From positions 1 to 64,000 of the forward strand of contig NZ_AZCX01000008.1 in NCBI RefSeq assembly GCF_001433995.1: a DNA stretch of 64,000 nt, read 5' to 3'. Under the pieces are notes generated by a model. That model was given only the letters and a program-made list of their open reading frames with translations, had not been told where the DNA came from and did no database searches. This DNA comes from Secundilactobacillus kimchicus JCM 15530 (GTDB lineage: Bacteria; Bacillota; Bacilli; Lactobacillales; Lactobacillaceae). The position numbers were made by a program, and so were the translations under genes. This document shows, one piece after another, positions 6,001 through 40,640 of this stretch (within the stretch, counting starts at the first letter, position 1; each line of letters opens with the position of its first letter).

Positions 6001-8662
6001 CACCTTCGGAAGCAGTGTTAGCCTCACTGTTAGCCGTTTCAGTATCCTTAACTGCGGCTTGGGCTTTTTTCAAAGCCGCTTGAGCGGCATCGTTAGCAGC
6101 GCTCGCAGCTTTTAAGGCACTCACAGTTGCGTCAAACGCAGGCTGTACCGCTTTTACTGCTTGAGAAGCCGCATCACTAGCGTCGTATGCCCCAAGCCGG
6201 TTATCAAAATCGGAGGGTAGATCTTCCTGATCCTCGTCCCCCCGCATGATGAGTAATGTGTCATGGGCTAATTTCTGAGCTTCTTCAAGTTTCCCCTGAG
6301 CTAATAAATCCTTGATTGGATCAATGTTTGCCAGCGCTTCGTCAGCATATTCGTTATGTTTCGTTAAATATTTCTGCGCATCACTCACAGATGCCGCCGT
6401 AGATGTATTTGTTGCCGAAGCAGATGATAACGCGTTCGCCGCTGCAGTTGACTGAACCAATGCCTCACTCAGTGCTGCTTGTGCCTCGCTGTTTGCCTCG
6501 ACAATAATCGGATTGTCTGGGTTATTCTTCAGTAAATCTGCAACGCTCCCAGCTGCCGAAGACGCCATTGTCGTATTGTCAGCAACTGAACCAGCTGTTG
6601 TAACCGTTGATCCAGCAATCGTAGCAACTGAATCAGCTGACTCACTGGCCTGCTTTAAATACCCTGCAATTTCATCTCCATTAGCACTCACGTCTGACCG
6701 AATGTCATCAATTGCCTTATTGACATCAGCCGTTATCGCGGCGTCGATTGCCTTTTGGCTCGCATCTGCACCAGCATCTGCTGCTGTCTTAGCAATTTGA
6801 GCGGCAGTTGTCGCACTGACCGTCGCATCACTGATGGTCTGATTTCCAGCGGTAACGGTCTGCGACTCTGCCACAGCCTCGGATGCCGCTGCACTTGCCG
6901 CACCGTAGTATTTAGTTGCATCATCTAGGCTACCAGCGTTTGCGGCTTCAACCGCAGAACTTGCTGCAGATGAGGCAGCTGCCGCATTAGCTGCTAGTGA
7001 GTCTGCTGCACTCTTAACAGAGGCGTAGGCTGCAGCGGCACTATCCGCCGCTGCCTTAGCATTATTCGCAGCAACTGCGGCTGAGCTACTTTGATCCTGG
7101 GCTTTTTTTAGCTCATCTAAGGCAATGCTAGTAGCTGGTCGATACTGCCCAGCACTGTCCATCTGAGCAGTATCATTTTTTTGGATAGCCGCTGAAGCGG
7201 CATCTGCACTACTTTTAGCAGCAGCCGCTGATTTCTGAGCTTCTGAAGCCGCTTTACTTGCAGCTGTCACGTTATCCGCCGCACTCAATAACGCTTCCTG
7301 AGCATTCGAATTAGCCAACGAAGCGGCCGTTGAAGCGGCAGCCGCAGATTCCAAAATTGGTATTGCAGCAACCGCTGTTTGAGCCGCTTTTAAAGCGTCT
7401 TGAGCGGTTTGATTGGCCTGGGCAGCGGCCGTGCTCTGAGCGGCTATAGCGTCAGCAGCTGCTTTAACCGTCTCAATCGTAGTGTCTAGTGCAGTACTCG
7501 CCGCTTGATACACAGATAACCTGGGCGTTATCTGTGTGTTAACCAGCGATATAATGCCCTGAGTATCGGCGTCCACTTGCTTTTGATTTCCCGAAACGGC
7601 CATACTTTGAAGCTCAACGTATTGCATTTGAACAATAGCATTCGTTTGGCTCATAGCTGCCACTGCACTAGAAGTTGAAGCAACCGTACTCGATACGGCC
7701 GCAGCTACGGAAGACGCTTGAACCGCTGTGGACTTTACAGCACTCAACTGTGAATTAGCACTATCAACTGCCGCACTAGCGGTTGATGCTGCGCTTTGAA
7801 CCGCAGCATTACTTGCATTGGAGGCCAATATTTTCTGAATCTCAGCATAGGCACTTGCCGCTGAACTAGCAGCCGCACTAATTTGACTGACCGCTGCACT
7901 GGCAGCACTGGCGTAACTCGTAGCATCTTTAGGTCCTTGTGACGCCTGGCTGGTGACTTCGGCCACCATCGAAGCAAGTGAGATGGCCATAGATATTGCT
8001 TGAGAAGTAGCTGCAGCGGAACTCGCACTTACACCGGTACTAGCGGCACGCAACATTTTAGTCTGCGGTGATTTTACTGCAACTGAGGCCGTAGAAAGGT
8101 TACTAGACTTTTCCACACTACCCTGCGTTGCTTCACTGGACGCCAAAGTGGACAAGCTGGATTGCCCTGAATCTTGGCTGCCAGTTTGTCCTGATTGAGT
8201 GGTTTCAGTCGAGGATGAGGCAACATCAGTAGTTGCCGAACTCGTTGACTGACTCGTTGCCGAACTTACACTTGTACTGCTTGCTGGTACGACACTTGTT
8301 GTTTCACTGCTAGTCTGAGTCGCTGTACCAGAATCTGGAGCACTTGCTGGCATAATATCGCCTAACCCAGTGCTGCCATTCAAAACCGGTGCACTATCGG
8401 TCTGTTCTCCAGGCGCCAACGTCACGGTGTCGCTACTCTGAAGCTGAGCGCTCGCTGACTCACTATCCTGGCTACTCTGCGCCACTTCTGAACTAGAAGT
8501 TGCCACAGTATCGGCCTTAGCCGTTGGTGCCGTTGCGACACCCAAGGCTAAAGCAACCGAAAAAGCGGACGCAAATATCCAGCTTTTACCAGCTTTATAC
8601 ATTTTAAAATGGCCGTTTTTGGCCCCTTTTTCGCGTTTTAAATTTTGTAGGTGCATAAACAT
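1..8662 (-). CDS. Giant Ala/Ser-rich repeat surface adhesin, KxYKxGKxW signal (3' end outside window)
   Basis: The frame is open from the ATG at 8662 to the window edge, at least 2887 codons. It was read directly over most of its length and spot-checked elsewhere, with no stop found. A GAGGGGG ribosome site lies 9 bases upstream. Residues 20-28 read KMYKAGKSW, the KxYKxGKxW signal motif linked to accessory-Sec-exported serine-rich glycoproteins, followed by a hydrophobic core and a TAKAD-like cleavage site near residue 50. Residues about 50-200 are Ser/Thr-rich. The rest is almost entirely Ala, Ser, Thr, Asp, Gln and Lys and is probably a long helical or coiled-coil stalk with an exact 221-residue repeat. 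The gene follows two glycosyltransferases by 29 bp, so Ser/Thr O-glycosylation is likely. No secA2, secY2 or asp genes are in the window. The wall anchor, if any, lies outside. The class is confident; the ligand is unknown. Confidence 0.9.
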   Translation of the reverse strand, partial: MFMHLQNLKREKGAKNGHFKMYKAGKSWIFASAFSVALALGVATAPTAKADTVATSSSEVAQSSQDSESASAQLQSSDTVTLAPGEQTDSAPVLNGSTGLGDIMPASAPDSGTATQTSSETTSVVPASSTSVSSATSQSTSSATTDVASSSTETTQSGQTGSQDSGQSSLSTLASSEATQGSVEKSSNLSTASVAVKSPQTKMLRAASTGVSASSAAATSQAISMAISLASMVAEVTSQASQGPKDATSYASAASAAVSQISAAASSAASAYAEIQKILASNASNAAVQSAASTASAAVDSANSQLSAVKSTAVQASSVAAAVSSTVASTSSAVAAMSQTNAIVQMQYVELQSMAVSGNQKQVDADTQGIISLVNTQITPRLSVYQAASTALDTTIETVKAAADAIAAQSTAAAQANQTAQDALKAAQTAVAAIPILESAAAASTAASLANSNAQEALLSAADNVTAASKAASEAQKSAAAAKSSADAASAAIQKNDTAQMDSAGQYRPATSIALDELKKAQDQSSSAAVAANNAKAAADSAAAAYASVKSAADSLAANAAAASSAASSAVEAANAGSLDDATKYYGAASAAASEAVAESQTVTAGNQTISDATVSATTAAQIAKTAADAGADASQKAIDAAITADVNKAIDDIRSDVSANGDEIAGYLKQASESADSVATIAGSTVTTAGSVADNTTMASSAAGSVADLLKNNPDNPIIVEANSEAQAALSEALVQSTAAANALSSASATNTSTAASVSDAQKYLTKHNEYADEALANIDPIKDLLAQGKLEEAQKLAHDTLLIMRGDEDQEDLPSDFDNRLGAYDASDAASQAVKAVQPAFDATVSALKAASAANDAAQAALKKAQAAVKDTETANSEANTASEGAQQSKDASDLAAASASASDTNAAKAASEAKDSAKAAGESAKSAAAASDAIQDIVKDNAENATVTSAATTAQQAVSDANAQSTAASTAASTAAEQAAIAKQAASDAAAGAAQVTTLNQQASTAAQAAKDAAAKGDTASATDLNKQAKTAADSAATTAATVTAANEKAAAAEKAAQNAAADAKKAAELAETANQQAQNALTAAESAAKSAQADSDSAATTSTEASQADDVATAARTAAQSSGTQANKAADDAAASAQQAQSSADAATTASEGINDLLTSHGSNATVASAASTAKTAVDDATDQAQSAAAAASSAATAAKNAQTAVDKANAAASNAQDLSQQAQAKADEAKKAAQKGQTDSASSLNQAAADLASQATSAASEAEISAKDVATAEKQATDQAAIAKQAADDAAAAQAKAEQALNDAKQAAGASDQAIKDAGTQSEAAQTAETNANLDLTSANAANTNAAQDVSDANQAASDAAASAKSAAQASDAIDALQSSHAENVAIASAATTAKSAVTEANQQSAAAQSAADVAKTKADLASSAAATAKSAADQVETLNQTAQEAAKNAEAAAKTGDLKGAENYTATASAAASEATAAAQIVADQNTAAQSAANEAKSAADDAKTAAETAEIANQNAQKALTDAQEAAETAQTGTDLADQQSEAAQETKNAADQDLTSVTTANTNAGSDAADAKTAAEGAEKSATSAAEASEAVNQIAASNATNTVVADAATKATSAAKEAADQSEAAQQAAAEAQKQADIAQEAVSEANEAVKTVNDMNQAAASAAADAKKAAATGDTIGTATNNDLALSAANAAAEAGALVAAAKEKATTAETAAKAAADQAKAASTAADLANQAAQAALAAAQTAAKNAQEGATKATDTTSNANKASEAAGTDLTAAQDASQRANDAADAAQKAADAAKASSTATESAADEIVDLLKDNPANQTVIKANETASAAIDDAKAASAAASTAAESAKTAADTAVSESQKASAAATEAANAARAAITAAEAATKAANNGDVTEADRLNALASASAELAETAAEKVATTNQAAQSAADGAVAAQQTAEAEEAKAAEAQKSAEDALKAAQQAVADAATITDSAAKDAAGAAADSTTAKQSASTADNHQQAADQSKSTADSATSAANNSSEAASSAVTVTDQLASENPNNPIIASAATKADSASQTASSAADQAQSAASAADSYSKDADSAATAAKVASNAASTAADTASAAATAASSYAAEGDLTNANSQATTARVASVAASIAASNAAAKESAASSAAAKAASAADDANAAQQAASNAAEVAKNAEEEATQAAQKAGDAASTASEATSTADDANVLATDDAASAASHKTDASCSAELASEAASAATSAAEIASSASSLTDQLASENPSNPTITTANETASSANSTAQSAAMVADSAATVASVAASTASDAESEAASAAAVTTSAANVASENASSASEAAAIGDTDLASSYASNANSAAVTASSAATVVSDANSKAASAALVASSAASEAVSAKEIATTQASVASSAAATATSAASEASAATSAAVSDSTAADSDATTASEAANNADADASNAASDATRASTAASEATVSSTATSNSVDQTNSLASAYPNDKTISQAIDDVTEASTVASQATSEAESAASDAASAAAKAKSEAAKASTANDEATAASAAASEATKAASEAAASGDTDAASSAVAKASSAASVASTAASEATAASTAASSAASDASTAADKAESAASTAASAASAANDAFSMASSAASNADAAKSAAATDDSNAQSNASQASTAASNASSAATGAKDDSTAASNAASSAASEASAASNAASDADSLAKDNPSNANISDANSTASSASNDASSAASDADSASTAASNAASTASEEASKASTAEEQASSAASEASSAASAASSAIAAGDSSAASSAGSAASSAASVASSAASAANSASTAASKASDAASDAASAASSAESKASSAASTASSAASQASSAASVAQDTSTATSNASDASSAAAGASEAA
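527..6526 (-). repeat. 663-bp (221-aa) long-period protein repeat, about ten units
   Basis: A landmark of the form (D/E/S)N-P/A-x-N-x-x-I/V occurs once per unit on the minus strand. Its first dipeptide codons start at + positions 527, 1190, 1853, 2516, 3179, 3842, 4505, 5168 and 5831. Every interval is exactly 663 bp. The next landmark, at 6521, is 690 bp away, and one at 7817 is two looser units further on. A second landmark (NQxAQxAL) recurs near 4085, 4748 and 5411, again 663 bp apart. Unit sequences are strongly diverged although their length is fixed. Confidence 0.88.
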
Positions 8663-29314: not shown

Positions 29315-30118
29315 CTAGTCGCCATCCATGTGATGATCAACCAGCCCTAACTCAGTTAAAAACGGGTGGCCCATTGCTGGAACCAACGGTGTGACGGTGG
29401 CCATGATACTAGCCGAAACATCAGCTAACGTTCGGCGAATCCCGAGTGCTTGACCAGTCCCCTGACCTTTAACCTCGATTAATAATGGCACGTACTCTCT
29501 TGTAAAACGGCCAAGGGTGGGATCGGTTGCAACGGATGATGTCACAATCAACCAGTCATCGGGTGATAATTGTTCACTTAACGTTGCAAGTTCGTGATCC
29601 ACCCACTCAAGCCACGTGGCAAAACCGCCAACGTCGCCTCTTAGCGAATGGGTTAACCCCGAGCCAAGACGTAAGTATTGCACGTTCTGATCAGCGCTTC
29701 GCACCATCTCAAATCCGGCACGGTCGTCATCCACAAGTAAAACGGGAAACGATATCCGATCAACGGGCATTGCACTGATAAGTTGCACCGAAGCAAACTG
29801 ACTTACCTGGTGTAACGTCCGATCAGCATCCCCCTGCCAGAGCTCCGCAAACCCAGTGTCTTGGTTCCAATTGGTCGTTTCGACGTGAACGCGGCCAAAG
29901 TAACCTAACGCTGAATCCACCGGCTCTATTCCGGCAATGGGGTGGTTAAATCGGACGTTGCCTAGTCCCCAACGTTGCATTGTGGGCACGCTAAACTCAG
30001 GTACCGATGAAGCCGTATGACCTAGGCCATCTGCGCCGACTGAATCGTAACGATTCGCCTCAGGCGCCTCGCCAAATCCAGTAGCAAACAGGTCTACGAT
30101 CACAATATGGTCTGGCAT
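29315..30118 (-). CDS. Phosphopentomutase-like protein lacking metal ligands (probable pseudoenzyme)
   Basis: 267 residues against about 390 for DeoB. The N-terminus (EAPEANRYDSVGADGLGHTA) and the stretch MQRWGLGNVR follow DeoB closely. The C-terminus follows its TREYVPLLIE and RRTLADVSASI segments. The cap domain is mostly gone. Sites that bind the two metals in DeoB are replaced: the ADHG motif reads SSVA, the His of DHTRE is Phe (RFTRE), and GHRRD reads GFEMV. The phospho-Thr motif DTTTGHWE is reduced to NQDTGFAE. Mutase or phosphatase activity is therefore unlikely; a binding or regulatory role, or recent decay, is possible. The frame is intact. GGAGG lies 13 bases before the ATG. nupC follows. 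Confidence 0.75.
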   Translation of the reverse strand: MPDHIVIVDLFATGFGEAPEANRYDSVGADGLGHTASSVPEFSVPTMQRWGLGNVRFNHPIAGIEPVDSALGYFGRVHVETTNWNQDTGFAELWQGDADRTLHQVSQFASVQLISAMPVDRISFPVLLVDDDRAGFEMVRSADQNVQYLRLGSGLTHSLRGDVGGFATWLEWVDHELATLSEQLSPDDWLIVTSSVATDPTLGRFTREYVPLLIEVKGQGTGQALGIRRTLADVSASIMATVTPLVPAMGHPFLTELGLVDHHMDGD

Positions 30119-30302: not shown

Positions 30303-30515
30303 AAAAAAAGGACTCACTGTTGATTTCAACGGTAAATCCTTTAAGAGAAGACTATTAGCCTTCTGCCCCTGCCAAGGAACTTCATTATACGCCTCGGAGG
30401 AGATTGCCGTCTCGTGTAGTTGAGAAAATCTTCTCGCAATAAACACTTGTTACCAACAATAGCCGGAAACTGAAACGTCATCAGTCGTTTGTGACGCGTT
30501 CAAAGTTCCCAAGAC
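30303..30515 (-). ncRNA. Possible second structured RNA or leader with terminator
   Basis: No plausible gene. On the minus strand a GAGAAGA / TCTTCTC pair (30435-30429 with 30351-30345) closes a domain of about 90 nt containing CCTCCGAGG and CCTT-N-AAGG hairpins. A strong terminator hairpin (30338-30310) with seven Us follows. I found no convincing separate promoter, so it may be read-through from the longer RNA or an attenuated leader of the downstream gene. Confidence 0.4.
30310..30338 (-). terminator. Terminator of the 30.3-kb structured RNA
   Basis: 14-position stem with one mismatch (minus strand AGGATTTACCGTTG / CAACAGTGAGTCCT), followed by TTTTTTT. Confidence 0.75.
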
Positions 30516-31134
30516 AAAAACATAGGACTCAAGGGATGTGGTTAAGCTACAATCCCTGAGTCCTATGACACTTTGGAAGAGACGCGGCGATTAAACCCGT
30601 GAACCCGTTTCGTAAACATACACTTAATAATCTATCGCCTCATATTATCTTCATTTTCAGTCAGCTGCCGTGAACACTGTAATCGTACTGATCGTCGTTT
30701 CGATTCACCGCTAACCAAATCAGTAAGTCTGATACTTTCTAAAACTGGAACTTCAACCTGAATCTCATCACTTCGACTCTTTACGCTCCAAAGACTTTTC
30801 TTAGAGTCATCGCATAAACCCAGCCTACATGACATTCGAACCCTTTGTAACTCCTAAGATGATGCTGCTAAATCTAAGGCATTCGCACGTTTTGAGCAGA
30901 AACGCTAAGCTGAAACAAGCTATTCAATTGTTTGGTGTTACAAAAACTTAGGGGCTAGTGTTCGTTAGAAATCCGGTGGTGCTTTGAATCACACATGACG
31001 CTTTTTAAGCTTGAGAACAAACACTTTGTTTCTAAATTCGTTGTACCAATAAGGATCTACAAAACGGGTGTAAATCATAATCTTAGTGGTGCTACTTCAT
31101 TGAAACGCTGGGTTTGAATCCCATCTCTTCCACG
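30516..31134 (-). ncRNA. Long structured noncoding RNA, about 620 nt; candidate ROOL-class RNA
   Basis: Transcription is predicted from TTGTAA (31168-31163), a 17-bp spacer and TATATT (31145-31140), starting near 31133. The RNA begins with GGAAGAGA (31131-31124), which pairs perfectly with TCTCTTCC (30582-30575), closing a domain of 557 nt. A terminator hairpin and U-tract follow at once (30567-30516). Internal stems are visible: TGGG-N-CCCA at the 5' end, GGCGAT / ATCGCC near the 3' end, GACTC-N-GAGTC in the middle. No frame inside has an SD or family resemblance. The size, closing stem and lactobacillus host fit ROOL (about 580 nt; an abundant long RNA of this kind is known in L. salivarius). 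GOLLD or a new class remain possible, since I could not test the sequence against a model. Confidence 0.7.
30521..30567 (-). terminator. Terminator of the long noncoding RNA
   Basis: CATAGGACTCA-GGGAT / ATCCCTTGAGTCCTATG on the minus strand, about 16 bp with one bulge, followed by TTTTTG. Confidence 0.88.
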
Positions 31135-31139
31135 TCCTT

Positions 31140-31168
31140 AATATACCATATCATGTAACCGGTTACAA
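31140..31168 (-). promoter_or_regulatory. Promoter of the long noncoding RNA
   Basis: TTGTAA - 17 bp - TATATT on the minus strand, seven bases before the closing stem. A TAACCGGTTA palindrome overlaps the -35 and spacer and may be an operator. Confidence 0.75.
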
Positions 31169-31224
31169 CAAAAAAGCCGCTAAAATTCAAAAATTTTTTT
31201 CGACCGGCTAAAACGCCCGTAAAA

Positions 31225-31431
31225 CAAGAAAGAAGCCAGACTGCTGGGGGGCAGCCTGGCTTCCAATTGACTGAATAAACGAACCTAATTTGAGGTACTC
31301 CTTGGGAGAAAATACAATGCTTTTGGATAGTATTCTAGGGGTGAACTGGGTGAATCCACCGTCGGAGTATTCTCTGAGATTCGACTATTCTTCTGTCATG
31401 ACTTGACGCGGTTTGGTTCATCGCCATCCGC
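31225..31431 (-). ncRNA. Small structured RNA, about 205 nt, 6S-like in size
   Basis: TATAAT (31443-31438) is preceded by TTGTTT at a 16-bp spacing, giving a start near 31431. A terminator ends the transcript near 31225. Near its ends GAACC and GGTTC can pair, and a GGTGGATTCACC hairpin lies near the middle, so the fold is rod-like. Length and shape would fit 6S RNA, but I cannot confirm the central bubble or the template site, and other small RNAs are possible. No SD-led frame is present. Confidence 0.6.
31232..31263 (-). terminator. Terminator of the 205-nt RNA
   Basis: 13-bp stem GAAGCCAGGCTGC / GCAGTCTGGCTTC with one mismatch, then TTTCTTGTTTT on the minus strand. Confidence 0.85.
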
Positions 31432-31443
31432 AAATTCATTATA

Positions 31444-32912: not shown

Positions 32913-35900
32913 CTAATTCCGCTTGCGAGACACCCACAAGGCCATCGCAAGTAACGTCAATCCGCCAAAACCGGCTAAAACAAGAAGCCAGTTGGCCGCT
33001 AAGAATTCGCCCGTTTGTGGCAGGAAGCCTTTGCCTGGTGTTGTGCCTGCCGGAGTCGTCGTCCCCGTACCCGAAGCTCCAGTGACCCCTGATGGGCCAG
33101 CTGCACCCATCGCTCCGGTGGTTCCAGTCGTCCCCGTCATTCCCCCACCACCAACGAAACTTGGCAAATCTGCTAATTCCGGCGTTGTTGGGTCGTGGGA
33201 TTCTGGTAGGTCCGTTAAGCGGTACGCATTCGTGTAGTGCACCGTATTTTGAGACGTGCATTGATCATGCACCGTTCCCGATACAACGCGGGTATCACGA
33301 GCCGTGCCTGTCCCTTGCGCCACGCTTGTCACATAACCATCTGCTGAATAGTCAGCTTCTTCAATATGGTAGCTCGTCCCGTTCAACAGTTGGAACCGGA
33401 TCGTCTCGCCGTGTTTTAATTCAACGGAAGCTCGGCCTTGTTCATCGAGGTGCAGTTGCCCAGTGACACTCGGGCTTGAACTAGACACTTTCACGTAAGG
33501 CACAAGCCCCGTCACTGGCCGCTGATCCGCGTCAGTAAACTGAACTGTAAAGTTGAATGCCCGATCATCATTCACGACACCTGTCACCGACTTCGATAAC
33601 GTTAACCACGTGTTGATTGGGGTCGTCTCACGGGTGTTCGTGAAGGCGATTCGGGTCGTTTGACCATCCTGAATCGTCACAACCCCCGTCTTAGCTCCCG
33701 CAACACTGGCTTGCAAGCCCACTTTATGGGTCGTCACAAAACCGTCACCGTTAGTCTCAGTCACCGTGACCCGCTGTTGTGGCAACAGATGATGAAGGGT
33801 TAGCCGTTCATCTGCTTTCAGGTGAACCGTCGCCACCCCTTGATGAACCGCTACTTGGACCGACTGATCGCCCTTGGCCGTGTGATGGGTCGCCGATACC
33901 TGCCGATTCAGGGTTGTGTCAACGGCCAGGTCATGATTCAAGAATGTGATGTCAAAGGTGAAGTCTCGGTTCCGATCGGTTTCGGATAAGTCCCCGGCAA
34001 CCGTTTTTTCAACTTGTAATTCACCAGACGCTACCGCGTTCACAAAATGCACATCGGTCAAACTCGTACCAGAAAGTGCCATGGCTTTTGTCGCCAGCCC
34101 GTCCACGTATGCCCCACCGTTCAGTGACCACTTAGTTGTCATCTGTTCAATGGTTGGCGCTGTTTCCCGGACGGTGTATGATCCAAGGGTTAGTCCGCTC
34201 AAGCGAACTGTTTGGCCACCCTTGACCGTCACCATCAATTTCCCCGCGTCAAATTTTAGGTTGGCGTTAACTTCAATCACCTGACCGTCAGCGTCAATTC
34301 GTTCAAGTAGAATCGGGCCGGTCACGTCGAGGTCGGCCGCGGCTTCCACCACAAATTCATAGTCTTCATCAGCATCAACTGGTCCCGTCACCGTTTTGTT
34401 GAGCTGTAACTCAGCGGTTTGATGTCGCTCGTTTTTGAACCGCAAATGCTGAGTGGTTTGCCCAATTTCAATTTCAGGTAACTCAGTTGCGTCATAAGCC
34501 TTGTATGCCCCGTTGTTCAGTGACCAGTACGGCGTCATATCAGACACTGTCGCCTCGGAGACACTGATGCCCACGCCTGCCGGTAAATCTGTCAGGTGCA
34601 GCGTTTCCCCGTGCTGCAAGTGCACAGTGGCTTCACCGTTCTTGAAGGTCACCGTCATTTTTTTTTCGTTGATTGTTGCATGATACTGACCGTCAGGCAT
34701 CCGGTCAGCATTTTTCGTCAGCTTCAGGTTAAACTTAAAGTCTTGTTTCAAATCGCCAGGCTCCGCCCCCGACACCACTTTGGTTAACGTGAAATCGCCG
34801 GTTGACAACGTATTGGTGAAGACAACGTTCAGCTGTTGGTTTGCTTCCAACGGCAGATTAGCCGCGATTAGCCCCGAACCGGCCTGCTGATTTGCTGTCC
34901 AAGTGGTCGTCATTCCCGCCACTTCAGGATCGTTTTCACTGACCTGGTAACTCGCAAGTGGCAATTCGTCGAGGATGATGACTTGCCCAGCGGTCAAATT
35001 AACGAGAGCTTCGCCGTTAACAAACGCTACGTTGTAAGTGTATTCCGCTTGGCTCTCACCCTTAGTGTAAACCTGTGCTGGTACACTCCCAGCATAACTA
35101 TCATCACTAGATTTAATCGCGAAGGTAAAGGTTTCTTCTGAACTCACCTTGCCCTGGCCCACTTTCTCAATCCGAAGTTTACCTTCCGGCTCGCGAGTGT
35201 TGGTAAAGGCAGCACCAACCGTCTTGTTCATCTTTATCGTTACAGTTGCCTTAGCCCCGTCACCCGACGCGCCAGCCAAGTCTTTCCAAGTGGTCGTAAA
35301 GCCATGCTGGGCTTCTTCTTCAATCGTAAACTGCATCTCGCTTGGCAGATTAACGATTTTCAAGTGTTCAGCATGTGCAAGCGTCACTGTTGCAACCCCG
35401 TTTTCAAAAGTTATCTCTTTTTGTTTGGTATTTCCTTCAACATCGAAGGTGCCCTCAAACTGATCGTCTGAAGTCGTAATCCGGAACTTAAAGTCTCGCG
35501 TTTCATCCTGATCGCGACCATTAACCACCGTCTTATGCAGTTCAAGGTCACCAACCCGTGGCGCATTGGTGATGGTAATTCCGCTGGTTTTACCGTCAGC
35601 CAGCGAGACCGGTTTAGTCGTATAGCGGTCACCATTAGCCTCACCACTTGGTGAACTGATCACGTCATACTGACTGGCTCCTAATTCTGTCGCCGATAAT
35701 TGGAGCGAATGCGGCAGGCCAACGACACTAAGGCTTTCATTGGCTTTCAACTGAAGGCTCGTTTTCCACTCATTGTCGTCGATCTTAAATTGCATTTGAC
35801 CAGTCACCAGTCGAACCTTTAAACGTGAGTGGGTTTGACCGTCCGATCCAGAAATCGTGCCGTCAAAGGTCGTATTCTCCGAATCAAACTTGTCAGCGGC

Positions 35901-38900
35901 GGCCACTTCAAAGTTGAATGTTTGGCCAGTCAACACGTTTCGCGGATCATCCACTGTCTTGGTCAAGACAAAGTCCCCAGCCCGTTTCGCATTTCTAAAG
36001 AAAACGTGGCGCGTTTGGTCGTCATCCAACGTGATAACGGATGACTCGGTACCCACTGTCATCTGCTCGTTATCGACTGCCACCGTGGTTTCGTAGTTCG
36101 CATCGGTCGACTTCACTTCTTCAACTTGGTACTGCCACTTGTCTGAGGTGCCCGGAATCAAGACTGGCAAATTAATCACTTCTAACTTCCCGCCCGCTTC
36201 AATGGTCACCGTCGCTTCACCGTGGTGGAAGACGACTTTTTTAGCGGACCCTTCAACCTGATAACTGTTATTAAACCTTGTATCAACTTCACCATTACCC
36301 GTCACAGCCCGGATTTTAAAGGTGAAAACATTCAGGCCTAAGTCGCCTGCCACCGTCTTGCGAATCAATAGGTGGCCAGTCTTCCCGATGGGATAGTTGG
36401 TAATGGTTCGCTCTGACTCCTCGAGTTTTTCATACGACGCATACGTAAACTCAAACGGTTCAATATTCGAGTCATAACCCGCTTTTGCGTTCACTTCAAC
36501 CAACCGGTACTTCGGATCTTGAGCTAAGTGGTAAAATTCCAAGAATCCTTCAGGGGTCACCGCAACGTCATCATACGTCTCATGAAGGAGGTTCTCGGCC
36601 ACTTTCCAAGCACCGGTCGTCGCGTCATATTGTTCAAGCCGGAACTTTGCCCCGGTTTGAGGTTGATTTTTTTCATCAACCTTAAAGAATCTGGCCGAGA
36701 ATTCCGACAGTAAGGCCTCCGAACTAATATTAGCCGTATAGGACGTTTGAATCCGCCACAGATTAGACTTCATTTCAACTGCATTACTATACCAGTCCGA
36801 ATTGCTCGACGATTCAGCCGTTTTAATCGTTGCATACTGTAGTAACACTGGTTTAGTCAAACTTGCCATTCGGATGGTAAACGACTTACCATCCGCTGCC
36901 GGAACGAGATCGTAATCGACGCCTCTCGTCAGCTGTTTTTGACTATTGGGGACAACTGTCGGAACGTACTTATTCCCCTGCCTCTCATGGGTAACGTCCA
37001 CGGTATACAAATTGAATTTATCCTCGGAAAACGCGTACTCGTGACTACCTGTTAACGCATCTTTAATCACCACATTTTCGTGTTTTTCACCGCGAGCGTT
37101 CAGGATTACTTTCCAATTTATTTGCCCCTTTTCCTCATTCCACTCAGCGGTTTTATTCGCGTACAAACCGTTCAAGGACACCTCTTGGCTGGCTTTAACC
37201 TCTTTGAAGTCAAGGTCGTTGTACGAGACCTTTGCGGCATTCTTGAAGATGGCTTTTTCTGGCTGAGTCTTGCCTTCTTCAACCTGCCAAGCATTCCAGT
37301 CAATGGGTGTATCAAACCGCAAGGCCAACCGATCGTACTTCGTCGGGCCCTTCATCTGAATGGTGATTTTAACCAGGTTGGCATCCTCCTCATCCTTAAC
37401 TATCCTGATGTCGTAGGCGTCTTCTGGAATCGGATTGTCCTTGACCACCAATTGATGGTTCTGGCCCACCTCCACTTCATGAAGCGTAAAATCCCGACTC
37501 GTCAAATAGCTTAAATAATTTGGTGTGCCATCGTTCAATTTTTCAGCCACCGTAATCTCTTGTACATTTCCTTCCCCGCCAAATACCGTGTTCCAACGAG
37601 TCCCAAACCCAACCGTCCACGTCACTGAACTGGTCTTATCAGGGTCATCACTTAGGTTCAGCTTACCCTCTTTAAATCCGTTATGGGCAATTGGCGATGG
37701 AATCCAGACGGTGGCGTCATCTTTTTCCCATAAAACTCGCGAATTATAAGTGCTCTTCGCTGAGACCTTATTCACGTGAGTCACTACCTGATCATCAGCA
37801 TTCGCATCCGGCCAATCGTGACGGGTTACAATTTTGATGGTCACTGGACCAGGTGAGTAGCTTTCATCCAAAGTGAACTTTATGGCATTGGGTTCTTTGT
37901 CCGTACCAGCTTCAGGTACGAAGTGATAGTTGTGCTCTTTCGAATCATAATCGCCATCAGAGTACCCAAAAACGTGTGCCGAATATTTGTTTCCATTTAC
38001 TAATACTTGTGACACACCGTCTTTCGTCACGCCCGTCGGCAATAAGTCAACAATCTCCACCGTCTCAAAATCATGTCTGGGAATCGTCAACGTCCACTCG
38101 ACCTTGGCTTTATTCTCTGAAGCCGAATAGTCAAACGTCCCGGTCTTTTGAATTAAAAATTTCTCTGTGACGTTAGCACTCGTCTTTTGCGAAATTGTAT
38201 CAAGTTTCGCGGTGATGTCGTTGTCGATTGCGTCTAAATCGCCTTCACCATCAACCGTTTTGGCGACCGATTTAAACGTCAAAGACAGTGTCGGATTTGA
38301 TTTCAAAGCTTCGACCAGCTCATCTAACTCACGCCCTTGATCAATCGTCAACGTGAGCTGTCGCTCGTTATCGGGATTAATTTCAGACTTAAATAAGCTC
38401 GTATAGTCCTGCGACGACCCCACCGCCACTTTCAGGTCAAGCTTCTCTGCCTCAAACGCTTGCGGGCCTCTGAGTGTATCCGTTAAGGTCAACGTCCTGA
38501 GCAAGCCTTCGGTAATTTCGTACCCCGCCAAATCCACGTCAACCTGCCAAGTATACGTCCCTTCGGATTGCGCATAATCTAACAATTGCTTATCTAACCC
38601 GTAGGCAGAAACGGAAGCCGTAACTTCTTTACTAATTGGGTCACCGTCCTGCTGAACCTGGGCAGCATTCTTAAAGAGTACTTGGTCATTGGCCTCTTGA
38701 TATTCGGTGTAGATGGTAAATTCAAGATTGTCCGTGACCTCCAGATAAGACGGTTCCTCTTCATCACCGACCGCCACCTTTTTTGCAGCAACCACCAGCT
38801 TGTCATTTTCAATCTTCGCCGTGAAATACTCGCTGACATCCTTGTCACCCATTCTCACCAGGATCTTATTATCTGTTGGTGTCACTAAACTGTGGTTACC

Positions 38901-40316
38901 GGATACGACCTGGTCGACTAAGGAAAAACCATCCATCTGGCCGGACAAATCTTCCCATTTTTTCTGATCCAAAGTAACCGTCCATTTAATCTTCTGGTCT
39001 CCGACAAACTGACCCTGTTTTGAAACGATATTATCGTCCTTAGATGGATCGACATTAATAATTGCCTCGTCTCGGAATTCCGCGATAATCGGGCCGTCCC
39101 CGTAATAGGACATGTCCAAGGACATCGTAAAATGAGCTGGCGTGATGAGGGGGCGTTCATCGCTAAACGTAATCGTCACTTCTAAATACGGTCGTGATGC
39201 CGAGCCACCGTTTAAAACGGTATAGGTACCCACTGTTCCATATTCAGACTTAATTTCACCATTTTGAACCTCTTGTTCGAGATGATTAACCCCGTAAATC
39301 CTGAATTTATAGAAATCATTTAGTGACAAGCCGTCGCCAATTTTTTTCTTTAACGCCTCCGTTGACCAGGCATAATCTAACTTAAAACTCTCGCCGGTAA
39401 GTTGACTAACATCAAACTCACCGCCATTTGTAATGTCTTGCGCCGCTTCACCCTTGGGGGTTAACGTCACTTTGTCAAAGAATGAATCACCGGCATCCAA
39501 GGCGGTTGCCAAATCACCATTTTGCACTGCTCGATTTTTCGCCGTCCGGCTGTTGGTTTCGCTAGCGCCCTGTCGCGCCTTTAAAACCGCTTTAGCTTTC
39601 GTTGCTTCCGCTAACTGGTCACTTGCGTTTTGAGCACTCTTTCGAGCCTCATTTTGGGCCGTTGACTGCGCAGTTGCCGCTTCCGTCTCAGCATCCCCAA
39701 CCTGCGCTGACTCCGTCTTTTCTGCCTGTTCATTAGCGGCCAACCGGTCAACAACCCGGCTCGGCCAGCGGTTTTCGTCAACGGGCTGCTGAATCGCTTC
39801 CTCGCTGGCGTCACCCGCTAGAATTTCTAGTGGTGATAGCCTAGTTGTCGCATCCCCAATCATCACTGGTAGCGCATAGCGAGTCATTGGCGTGCCTAAC
39901 TGAACTGGTAACGTTACGCTAAATGTCGCGGTATTTTCCACGTTGAACCAGTTTAAACTCAGCTTCTGTTGCCGATTGCGCCGGATTTCAACCGTACCGC
40001 CGCCCGTCGTTGCGTCAACCTCCAATGGTAACTTATCAGTCACTATTTTCAGCTGTTCTTCAGGCAACCAAATTTGAACCCGCCCCCGGTCAGTATCACC
40101 GGACTGGGGGGAGAGGGTCACCTGTAACTGTAAATTGGCATCGGTGCCCGACTTCACCCGATCGCCAATAACTTGATCATCTGAGGTCACAAGCCTCGCG
40201 CTATTGATGGCCACTGGTTCGACCGAAGTTGTTGCTAAAGCCGATGTACTTGGAAAGACGGTTCCAAGAATCAACGTTAACGCAGATATGAATTGAATCA
40301 TCGCTTTCTTTAACAT
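32913..40316 (-). CDS. LPXTG-anchored multidomain adhesin, 2467 residues
   Basis: A signal peptide ends near LATTS. An Ala-rich helical segment (about 190-250) leads to a row of Cna-A-like fibrinogen/collagen-binding folds (about 260-1200; recurring WTV-x-L and NxVxIxDxL motifs). A SpaA-like module follows (about 1205-1300). Then come eight modules of 110-140 residues starting near 1310, 1445, 1590, 1710, 1840, 1970, 2100 and 2235, each with K-T/V-V-x-G at the start, an E before TTW, and V-x-F-T/K-N at the end. That is the Lys-Glu-Asn layout of isopeptide-locked Cna-B/prealbumin domains. A collagen-like Gly-X-Y stretch (about 2390-2420), LPQTG at 2432, a membrane helix and SRKRN close the protein. 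ATG 40316 follows AAGGAG by eight bases; GTG 40325 lies inside the SD. The ligand is unknown. Confidence 0.9.
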   Translation of the reverse strand: MLKKAMIQFISALTLILGTVFPSTSALATTSVEPVAINSARLVTSDDQVIGDRVKSGTDANLQLQVTLSPQSGDTDRGRVQIWLPEEQLKIVTDKLPLEVDATTGGGTVEIRRNRQQKLSLNWFNVENTATFSVTLPVQLGTPMTRYALPVMIGDATTRLSPLEILAGDASEEAIQQPVDENRWPSRVVDRLAANEQAEKTESAQVGDAETEAATAQSTAQNEARKSAQNASDQLAEATKAKAVLKARQGASETNSRTAKNRAVQNGDLATALDAGDSFFDKVTLTPKGEAAQDITNGGEFDVSQLTGESFKLDYAWSTEALKKKIGDGLSLNDFYKFRIYGVNHLEQEVQNGEIKSEYGTVGTYTVLNGGSASRPYLEVTITFSDERPLITPAHFTMSLDMSYYGDGPIIAEFRDEAIINVDPSKDDNIVSKQGQFVGDQKIKWTVTLDQKKWEDLSGQMDGFSLVDQVVSGNHSLVTPTDNKILVRMGDKDVSEYFTAKIENDKLVVAAKKVAVGDEEEPSYLEVTDNLEFTIYTEYQEANDQVLFKNAAQVQQDGDPISKEVTASVSAYGLDKQLLDYAQSEGTYTWQVDVDLAGYEITEGLLRTLTLTDTLRGPQAFEAEKLDLKVAVGSSQDYTSLFKSEINPDNERQLTLTIDQGRELDELVEALKSNPTLSLTFKSVAKTVDGEGDLDAIDNDITAKLDTISQKTSANVTEKFLIQKTGTFDYSASENKAKVEWTLTIPRHDFETVEIVDLLPTGVTKDGVSQVLVNGNKYSAHVFGYSDGDYDSKEHNYHFVPEAGTDKEPNAIKFTLDESYSPGPVTIKIVTRHDWPDANADDQVVTHVNKVSAKSTYNSRVLWEKDDATVWIPSPIAHNGFKEGKLNLSDDPDKTSSVTWTVGFGTRWNTVFGGEGNVQEITVAEKLNDGTPNYLSYLTSRDFTLHEVEVGQNHQLVVKDNPIPEDAYDIRIVKDEEDANLVKITIQMKGPTKYDRLALRFDTPIDWNAWQVEEGKTQPEKAIFKNAAKVSYNDLDFKEVKASQEVSLNGLYANKTAEWNEEKGQINWKVILNARGEKHENVVIKDALTGSHEYAFSEDKFNLYTVDVTHERQGNKYVPTVVPNSQKQLTRGVDYDLVPAADGKSFTIRMASLTKPVLLQYATIKTAESSSNSDWYSNAVEMKSNLWRIQTSYTANISSEALLSEFSARFFKVDEKNQPQTGAKFRLEQYDATTGAWKVAENLLHETYDDVAVTPEGFLEFYHLAQDPKYRLVEVNAKAGYDSNIEPFEFTYASYEKLEESERTITNYPIGKTGHLLIRKTVAGDLGLNVFTFKIRAVTGNGEVDTRFNNSYQVEGSAKKVVFHHGEATVTIEAGGKLEVINLPVLIPGTSDKWQYQVEEVKSTDANYETTVAVDNEQMTVGTESSVITLDDDQTRHVFFRNAKRAGDFVLTKTVDDPRNVLTGQTFNFEVAAADKFDSENTTFDGTISGSDGQTHSRLKVRLVTGQMQFKIDDNEWKTSLQLKANESLSVVGLPHSLQLSATELGASQYDVISSPSGEANGDRYTTKPVSLADGKTSGITITNAPRVGDLELHKTVVNGRDQDETRDFKFRITTSDDQFEGTFDVEGNTKQKEITFENGVATVTLAHAEHLKIVNLPSEMQFTIEEEAQHGFTTTWKDLAGASGDGAKATVTIKMNKTVGAAFTNTREPEGKLRIEKVGQGKVSSEETFTFAIKSSDDSYAGSVPAQVYTKGESQAEYTYNVAFVNGEALVNLTAGQVIILDELPLASYQVSENDPEVAGMTTTWTANQQAGSGLIAANLPLEANQQLNVVFTNTLSTGDFTLTKVVSGAEPGDLKQDFKFNLKLTKNADRMPDGQYHATINEKKMTVTFKNGEATVHLQHGETLHLTDLPAGVGISVSEATVSDMTPYWSLNNGAYKAYDATELPEIEIGQTTQHLRFKNERHQTAELQLNKTVTGPVDADEDYEFVVEAAADLDVTGPILLERIDADGQVIEVNANLKFDAGKLMVTVKGGQTVRLSGLTLGSYTVRETAPTIEQMTTKWSLNGGAYVDGLATKAMALSGTSLTDVHFVNAVASGELQVEKTVAGDLSETDRNRDFTFDITFLNHDLAVDTTLNRQVSATHHTAKGDQSVQVAVHQGVATVHLKADERLTLHHLLPQQRVTVTETNGDGFVTTHKVGLQASVAGAKTGVVTIQDGQTTRIAFTNTRETTPINTWLTLSKSVTGVVNDDRAFNFTVQFTDADQRPVTGLVPYVKVSSSSPSVTGQLHLDEQGRASVELKHGETIRFQLLNGTSYHIEEADYSADGYVTSVAQGTGTARDTRVVSGTVHDQCTSQNTVHYTNAYRLTDLPESHDPTTPELADLPSFVGGGGMTGTTGTTGAMGAAGPSGVTGASGTGTTTPAGTTPGKGFLPQTGEFLAANWLLVLAGFGGLTLLAMALWVSRKRN

Positions 40317-40640
40317 CGTCTCCACTCCTTTTTAAACCGACAGTTTTACTACAACTTCAGGATACCATCTAAATATGTACAAAAATGGAACAAAGTGTGA
40401 CTTTTGTTTTATGTTATTTAATTGGTTCTCTAATGCCAGTTAAAATATGAAGAAAGCCGATTATATAACCTATTAAACCCCCTAATTTCCCCCGGCCAGA
40501 CAGCATTTCGGTCTATTCAAGGTAGAGTCGTAAAACCTTCAAAGTATTTTCAACTTTTCTTCACATATTTATCGCTTTTACACCATATTTTTTTGGGATA
40601 CTAATCATGCATAAGGGGTTCATGCATAGGAGGTGACCAA
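40317..40640. promoter_or_regulatory. Divergent intergenic region between the adhesin and the anchored protein
   Basis: No gene is seen. On the plus strand TTTACA (40577-40582) and TACTAA (40599-40604) with a 16-bp spacer suit the 149-residue protein. CATGCATA is directly repeated at about 40606 and 40621. The adhesin promoter on the minus strand is not obvious. Confidence 0.4.

Follow-up and report, generated by a model that had tools for sequence, protein, structure and literature searches.

A long structured noncoding RNA gene with a cre-type promoter in Secundilactobacillus kimchicus and its relatives across Lactobacillaceae

The locus

We analysed a window of 64,000 nucleotides from Secundilactobacillus kimchicus JCM 15530 (contig NZ_AZCX01000008.1, positions 1 to 64,000). 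On its minus strand, in the chromosome between rpiA and a phosphopentomutase-like gene (29315-30118), lies what is close to certainly the gene of a long structured noncoding RNA (Table 1). Along that strand the order is TTGTAACCGGTTACATGATATGGTATATTAAGGAC, then GUGGAAGAGAU, about 550 nt later GUCUCUUCCA, and then the terminator. The genome carries one copy, as judged by blastn. An earlier note on this DNA, made from the letters alone, had proposed a TTGTAA-17-TATATT promoter and a rho-independent terminator directly behind a stem joining the two ends of the transcript. Both promoter boxes are where the note put them, and the terminator, hairpin and U run included, follows the stem and is paired in the consensus of 13 aligned sequences (columns 739-782). 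The terminator at 30567-30516 is absent from the list made by an automatic scan, probably because its loop exceeds the scan's 8-base maximum.

Table 1. Features of the long RNA gene, in window coordinates
Feature	Position	Strand	Details
Long structured noncoding RNA	30516..31133	-	about 618 nt; start near 31133 placed from the -10 box
3' limit of long RNA	30520-30516	-	U run of terminator; from sequence
Sigma-A-type promoter	31140..31168	-	-35 TTGTAA 31168-31163; 17-nt spacer; -10 TATATT 31145-31140
cre-type operator TTGTAACCGGTTACA	31154..31168	-	overlaps -35 box; from sequence
Closing stem, 5' strand UGGAAGAGAU	31123..31132	-	invariant in genus
Closing stem, 3' strand GUCUCUUCCA	30574..30583	-	consensus pairing
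Second long-range helix, 5' strand CCCGUUUUGUAGA	31056..31068	-	helix 3 of 13-copy alignment
Second long-range helix, 3' strand UUUACGAAACGGG	30604..30616	-	helix 3 of 13-copy alignment
Variable insert	30975..31001	-	alignment columns 161-310; short in window, longer with AGNNYCA heptads in relatives
Conserved core domain	30760..30974	-	multibranched, helices 4-12
Covarying core hairpin	30793..30808	-	GACUCUAAGAAAAGUC in window; GGUUAU/AUAACC in most relatives
3'-domain helix, 5' strand	30713..30719	-	columns 568-574, helix 13
3'-domain helix, 3' strand	30656..30662	-	columns 627-633, helix 13
Invariant motif UGAGGCGAU	30634..30642	-	13/13 Secundilactobacillus and 17/17 Levilactobacillus copies
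Intrinsic terminator CAUAGGACUC...GAGUCCUAUG	30516..30567	-	hairpin 30567-30521; U run 30520-30516

The setting was said to be free of prophage or plasmid context, and so we find it: blastn of the long RNA against phage and plasmid sequences gives no match, and ARAGORN finds no tRNA or tmRNA in the window. We reject tmRNA on this result, and a phage or plasmid origin on the blastn result together with the exact promoter pattern described below, which occurs on no viral contig.

Other elements lie close by. A second small RNA-like element at 30303-30389 (minus) consists of TATAAT, TTCCTTGGCAGGGGC and a AAAGGATTTACC...GAGTCCTTTTTTT terminator, and its start region is matched near the long RNA in 12 of 12 relatives. 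At 31231-31443 (minus), on the upstream side of the long RNA, a further short transcript may be bounded by a TATAAT box near 31443 and a strong terminator (31264-31231); the flanks retrieved from 12 relatives hold no match to it. Farther along, at 32913-40325 (minus), is a repeat-rich surface-type protein of 2470 aa with an LPQTG motif near its end.

Coding potential

The longest open reading frame on the RNA strand has 67 aa (30632-30835). It has no Pfam match at E<=0.01, and the homologous frame contains a stop in 12 of 12 relatives. Substitutions relative to one related locus (L026) are spread evenly across the codon positions (19, 19 and 17), and the position of the longest frame differs from copy to copy. 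With the frame not conserved and no Pfam match for it, we reject a protein gene, in agreement with the earlier view that nothing inside looks like a gene. Shine-Dalgarno-like GGAG is depleted in the body type to which the window belongs (type A, below), with 6 occurrences against 22.8 expected in Secundilactobacillus and 3 against 33.0 in Levilactobacillus; outside type A the depletion is weaker or absent, and Companilactobacillus shows none.

Conservation and fold

Features of the single sequence are modest. The promoter matches the consensus at 9 of 12 positions and has a TG ahead of the -10 box, and taken alone it is not clearly above chance (7 promoter-like sites within 2.1 kb, where shuffles give 4.4 with an sd of 2.1). 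The predicted fold is mildly stable, with a z of -1.47 and 0 of 20 shuffles folding as well. As neither promoter nor folding energy is impressive on its own, we built the case on comparison.

By blastn, 13 of the 15 Secundilactobacillus genomes contain a homologue, the window's own included. G005 and G008, the two genomes in which blastn finds nothing, have the same kind of promoter, with 0 and 2 mismatches, followed by bodies of 612 and 504 nt that start with GAGGAAA and end with UUUCCUC before a terminator. Given the homologues in 13 genomes and the same promoter and closed-end design in these two, all 15 appear to have such a gene, in two body types.

The 13 aligned copies measure 602-708 nt, terminator included. 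The perfect 8-nt pairing of the ends reported earlier is present in every one of them and extends to 10 pairs by one U-A and one U-G. Its letters are identical in all 13, so there is no covariation for it within this set. Between genera the letters differ and pairing is kept, as in Companilactobacillus (GTGGTAAGG/TCTTACCAC), L. brevis (GCGGAAAGGT/GCCTTTCCGC) and Pediococcus (GAGGAAG/CTTCCTC). The earlier note would have given up the RNA gene if related genomes kept an open frame here and lost the closing stem; the relatives show the reverse, with the stem in 13 of 13 and the frame broken in 12 of 12.

RNAalifold predicts 118 pairs from the 13 copies, 27 of them with compensatory changes. Of these pairs, 91 lie outside the terminator; 98.1% of their cells are paired, and 21 of the 91 have changed on both sides. 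When partners are slid by 1-3 columns, 30-47% of cells pair and 1-3 double-change pairs are left. As a fold picked from an alignment is biased towards that alignment, we compared these counts with alignments simulated along the tree without structure, 30 times within each genus, each of which was refolded. This comparative folding, which had been suggested as a check, gives 35 double-change pairs in Secundilactobacillus (13 copies; null mean 8.4, maximum 14), 29 in Levilactobacillus (17 copies; 8.6, maximum 14) and 13 in Companilactobacillus (7 copies; 4.9, maximum 10). The 20 Limosilactobacillus copies offer no such support, with 4 double changes against a null mean of 2.7 (maximum 8); their folding energy of -66.9 lies under the null minimum of -52.4. 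These Limosilactobacillus sets omit three loci with uncertain ends (L045, L068 and L080). In a mixed alignment of 30 Secundilactobacillus and Levilactobacillus sequences, an R-scape-like G-test finds no pair at E<0.05, and a count of events gives moderate support (77 against a null mean of 35.8, maximum 50).

All cells of the second long-range helix are paired (100% over 13 pairs), and 5 of its pairs vary one-sidedly. In the core hairpin (helix 12), 4 of 6 pairs have changed on both sides with 94.9% of cells paired. The 3'-domain helix (helix 13) has 5 of 7 pairs changed on both sides and 90.1% of cells paired, with the window sequence slightly out of register in the alignment. Compared by eye, Levilactobacillus is predicted to have a core arrangement similar to that at 30760..30974. 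The possibility that the locus is a set of chance features in an ordinary intergenic region would accord with the promoter scan, close to shuffled expectation, and with the modest z of the single fold; it is contradicted by conservation in 13 of 15 genomes and by the covariation, and we regard its probability as virtually nil.

Comparison with known RNAs

No part of the window matches an Rfam 15 model at its gathering score. When 30400-31300 is searched up to E 10, four weak matches appear, the best at E 0.89 and all far under their cut-offs, and ROOL, GOLLD and 6S are absent among them. Across 16 loci of the family and 18 more from other genera and body types, the Rfam matches are T-box, tRNA, FMN and rRNA, outside the RNA. 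The long RNA is a member of a family without an entry in Rfam 15. The earlier note had left the choice between a divergent ROOL and a new class, and had proposed the ROOL and GOLLD covariance models as the deciding search. With no match to either at E<=10, we reject ROOL (RF03087) and GOLLD (RF01998), and the part of the suggestion that stands is a class absent from Rfam 15. As a positive control, the ROOL model matches 4 of 151 Lactobacillaceae genomes and has 0 matches in the window's own genome; two genomes (G122 and G140) hold both ROOL and the promoter of this family, on different contigs.

Likeness of form to ROOL and GOLLD nevertheless exists, as all are long, closed at their ends and complex in fold, with a variable linker inside. 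An ornate RNA that assembles with itself into an RNA-only cage or oligomer, acting like ROOL or GOLLD with no kinship in sequence, would fit the size, the closed ends, the multibranched covarying core and the variable inner linker, and the available text of PMC12286853 describes a disordered internal loop in ROOL and GOLLD too. We nonetheless consider self-assembly unlikely: the ROOL and GOLLD models find nothing, phage and plasmid matches, exact-pattern matches in viruses and tRNA genes in the window are all lacking, and bodies of only about 130 nt in two Lactobacillus strains are ill-suited to one cage. Unlike ROOL and GOLLD, the long RNA is chromosomal, between rpiA and the phosphopentomutase-like gene, and has a cre-type promoter; the phage or tRNA-island setting of ROOL is not seen at the long RNA.

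6S RNA (RF00013) is rejected as well, with no match at the locus at E<=10. The 6S RNAs of lactic acid bacteria likewise have a cre over the -35 region of their genes, with a probable inhibitory role, according to the available part of PMC8414754. At about 160-200 nt they are much shorter than the long RNA, and the genome's own 6S candidate sits elsewhere (C34:253391-253581; 40.6 bits, under the 46.4-bit cut-off).

Lactobacillus plantarum supermotifs (LPSM), noncoding elements of 800-1000 nt cited in the part of PMC5643018 available to us, are specific to L. plantarum and present in many copies; the long RNA has one copy, and the two are set apart by description alone. The open-licence PMC literature searched, by titles and the first part of abstracts, describes no such RNA, which is a weak absence, and term look-ups in the accessible text of PMC5643018, PMC12286853, PMC8632094 and PMC11109978 likewise return no description of one.

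A family across Lactobacillaceae

An exact promoter pattern drawn from the family, and including the first GNGG of the RNA, occurs on 60 contigs among 84,980 genomes, 59 titled Lactobacillaceae and 1 Oscillospiraceae. With up to 2 mismatches it matches 161 of 397 Lactobacillaceae genomes in 26 of 40 genera (the reversed pattern, 3 of 397), and 161 of 397 is to be read as an upper figure because the inexact pattern also matches ordinary genes. Of 19 places inspected, 2 of which are exact matches, 8 have a gene-like frame of at least 108 aa starting within 130 bases.

A loose test for the closing stem passes 55 of the 60 exact matches, among them one (L080) probably assigned to the wrong terminator. 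Three of the misses are cut at the locus end (L068, L079 and L091), a fourth (L045) has a hairpin without a run of four T after the stem, and the fifth, the Oscillospiraceae match L087, is by eye the start of a gene. As the loose threshold also passes 33.1 of 60 with shuffled ends, we relied on a stricter score (at least 18). By that score 43 of 60 have the stem at the first terminator, compared with 2.9 of 60 when the 5' ends are shuffled. If any terminator is allowed, 44 of 60 have it, compared with 14 of 180 for random anchors. The operator and this family across the Lactobacillaceae are additions to the earlier note.

The closed ends and the terminator are shared, and it is the bodies that differ. 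Clustering of 69 sequences, which took 9 of the 20 loci of a further set and excluded L087, gives groups mostly by genus, with body lengths of about 130-820 nt. Type A (n=19) comprises Secundilactobacillus and Levilactobacillus and includes the window; type B (n=24), Limosilactobacillus and Paucilactobacillus; type C (n=7), Companilactobacillus; and type D (n=12), which is held together only at E<1e-3, Loigolactobacillus, Schleiferilactobacillus, Agrilactobacillus, Pediococcus, S. malefermentans and another genus. Four smaller groups, mostly of Lactobacillus, have 7 members in all.

Neighbouring genes link several of these bodies. mvaS precedes the RNA in 7 of 7 Companilactobacillus loci, in L050 (Agrilactobacillus) and L092 (Bombilactobacillus), and in 4 of 5 Lactobacillus loci, just 134 bases being available upstream of the fifth (L048). 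L050, L092 and 5 of 5 Lactobacillus loci are followed by rlmD, for which the Companilactobacillus loci gave no match. In Secundilactobacillus rpiA is upstream in 10 of 11 loci (3137 bases away in S. collinoides) and is not so placed in S. malefermentans, and Limosilactobacillus loci often have a YbjQ-like gene downstream. That different bodies follow one promoter at a shared locus points to a single ancestral gene whose body changes fast; horizontal exchange is also possible.

The same neighbours bear on whether the RNA could serve the downstream phosphopentomutase-like gene as a leader, riboswitch-like or an attenuator. With its terminator the RNA does end ahead of that gene and in the same orientation, and a homologue of the gene also follows in L. 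brevis (L081) and S. collinoides (L066). In the window, however, an element with its own -10 box and terminator intervenes, the other Secundilactobacillus loci compared have no homologue of the gene in the stretch retrieved, and in 5 Lactobacillus loci and 1 Bombilactobacillus locus the next gene, rlmD, is oriented the opposite way. The long RNA is not the leader of a neighbouring gene, and we hold the phosphopentomutase version of that idea to be very improbable.

AGNNYCA heptads and other motifs

Within type A, AGNNYCA heptads are enriched (76 against 17.5 expected in Secundilactobacillus, 100 against 25.1 in Levilactobacillus), as they are in four Agrilactobacillus or Schleiferilactobacillus sequences (33 against 10.9). 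They are often spaced by 7 nt in the inserts, and the window RNA holds 8. An unsupervised scan of degenerate 7-mers places GNNYCA first among the motifs common to four groups (5 of 13 Secundilactobacillus, 5 of 17 Levilactobacillus, 2 Agrilactobacillus-type and 2 Schleiferilactobacillus sequences). Copies within a genus are kin, so these scores overstate independence; recurrence in different genera, together with the free NN, argues against plain slippage. The heptads are barely more unpaired than the remaining RNA (0.43 against 0.37; 0.41 against 0.40). They are not clearly enriched in Limosilactobacillus (z 2.3), Companilactobacillus (2.4), Loigolactobacillus-type (-0.6) or Lactobacillus (-1.7) bodies, and a heptad platform cannot for that reason be the function of the whole family.

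Control by CcpA and possible function

The operator agrees with the cre consensus. All 13 aligned Secundilactobacillus copies fit the pattern TTGNAANCGNTTNCA, and a combined cre and -10 pattern, defined only after the family had been examined, has one occurrence in the window when up to 1 mismatch is allowed, where chance would give 0.01. The genome encodes CcpA (554.8 bits; cut-off 442.35), along with 9 further genes of the LacI family that match the ccpA model weakly. CcpA control of the long RNA seems likely from the sequence, and another LacI-family protein could bind the operator instead.

CcpA-repressed RNAs and long structured RNAs are known kinds already. RosA of Bacillus subtilis and RsaI of Staphylococcus aureus are stand-alone RNAs repressed by CcpA, as given in the available text of PMC8216469 and PMC9266662, and at our locus the letters likewise place a cre-type operator on the promoter of an RNA gene that stands by itself. 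It is possible, if doubtful, that the long RNA is a regulator of that sort, a base-pairing RNA or sRNA sponge that, at low sugar, would use its exposed stretches to pair with mRNAs or small RNAs. Its stand-alone gene and predicted control are those of RosA and RsaI (the same sources, in part), the AGNNYCA repeats and conserved loops could serve as pairing sites, and type D bodies are enriched in AGGTG/GGAGG (36 against 11.7). Yet in type A the GGAG sites of the kind that RosA and RsaI use are depleted, as noted above, and the covarying long-range structure goes beyond what such sRNAs would seem to need. AGGTG/GGAGG is likewise depleted in type A, which speaks against G-rich regions of the RosA/RsaI kind that pair with C-rich sRNAs. 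A RosA-like G-rich sponge we reject on the depletion of G-rich motifs in type A, type D's enrichment notwithstanding. Compared by description, the long RNA also differs from RosA and RsaI in its length of 600-710 nt, its covarying long-range fold and, in type A, its depleted GGAG.

We lean slightly towards a CcpA-repressed structured RNA of sugar depletion that acts as a stable platform. With a preferred sugar present, CcpA with HPr-Ser46-P would sit on the operator and block RNA polymerase. Once the sugar is exhausted, repression would be lifted and a compact RNA with sealed ends would build up. With less certainty, this RNA might then be a binding platform of the starvation phase: the folded core would make the RNA stable and display its conserved loops, the invariant UGAGGCGAU among them, and an RNA-binding protein would find repeated sites in the AGNNYCA heptads of the flexible inserts. 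We would give the platform role by itself perhaps one chance in three.

It is tempting to speculate further that promoter, cre switch, closing stem and terminator form a fixed frame in which the body has been rebuilt repeatedly, with the heptads of type A read by an RNA-binding protein. We offer this tentatively, on the basis of body types of about 130 to 820 nt that do not align, several of them beside mvaS, of two types within one genus, and of promoters repeated in tandem in Companilactobacillus. If so, this starvation RNA would be of a new kind: its sealed frame would be kept, and the payload inside would be free to evolve.

This RNA gene occurs in many genera of lactobacilli, bacteria with uses in food and as probiotics, and it appears to be linked to their main sugar switch. 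If it is expressed as predicted, a long structured RNA joins catabolite control, the natural variants may show which parts of a large RNA matter, and the heptads give a testable way of finding the protein or RNA by which they are read.

Further members and repeated units

Inexact promoter matches were also seen at four loci of one genus (L149, L150, L152 and L153, in G083, G232, G300 and G110). Closing stem and terminator lie at about 270 nt in two of these and at about 620 nt in the other two, from which the family probably extends to further genera.

In genomes of one genus the promoter pattern stands in tandem, as at positions 7998, 8430 and 8908 of G312:C2 and likewise in Companilactobacillus L083, with two or three copies about 430-1300 bases apart, suggesting tandem RNA genes. 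Two Loigolactobacillus loci (L082 and L084) contain a module like GTCTTCGGCAGACTGCTAAGACACGAAATAGCAGTCGTTGGTAACA several times per body. At L019 (Lactobacillaceae), inspection by eye finds three similar units of about 130-150 bases upstream of the promoter, with AACGTGCTTCT/CAGCACTTCG-like ends, which are perhaps repeated small RNAs.
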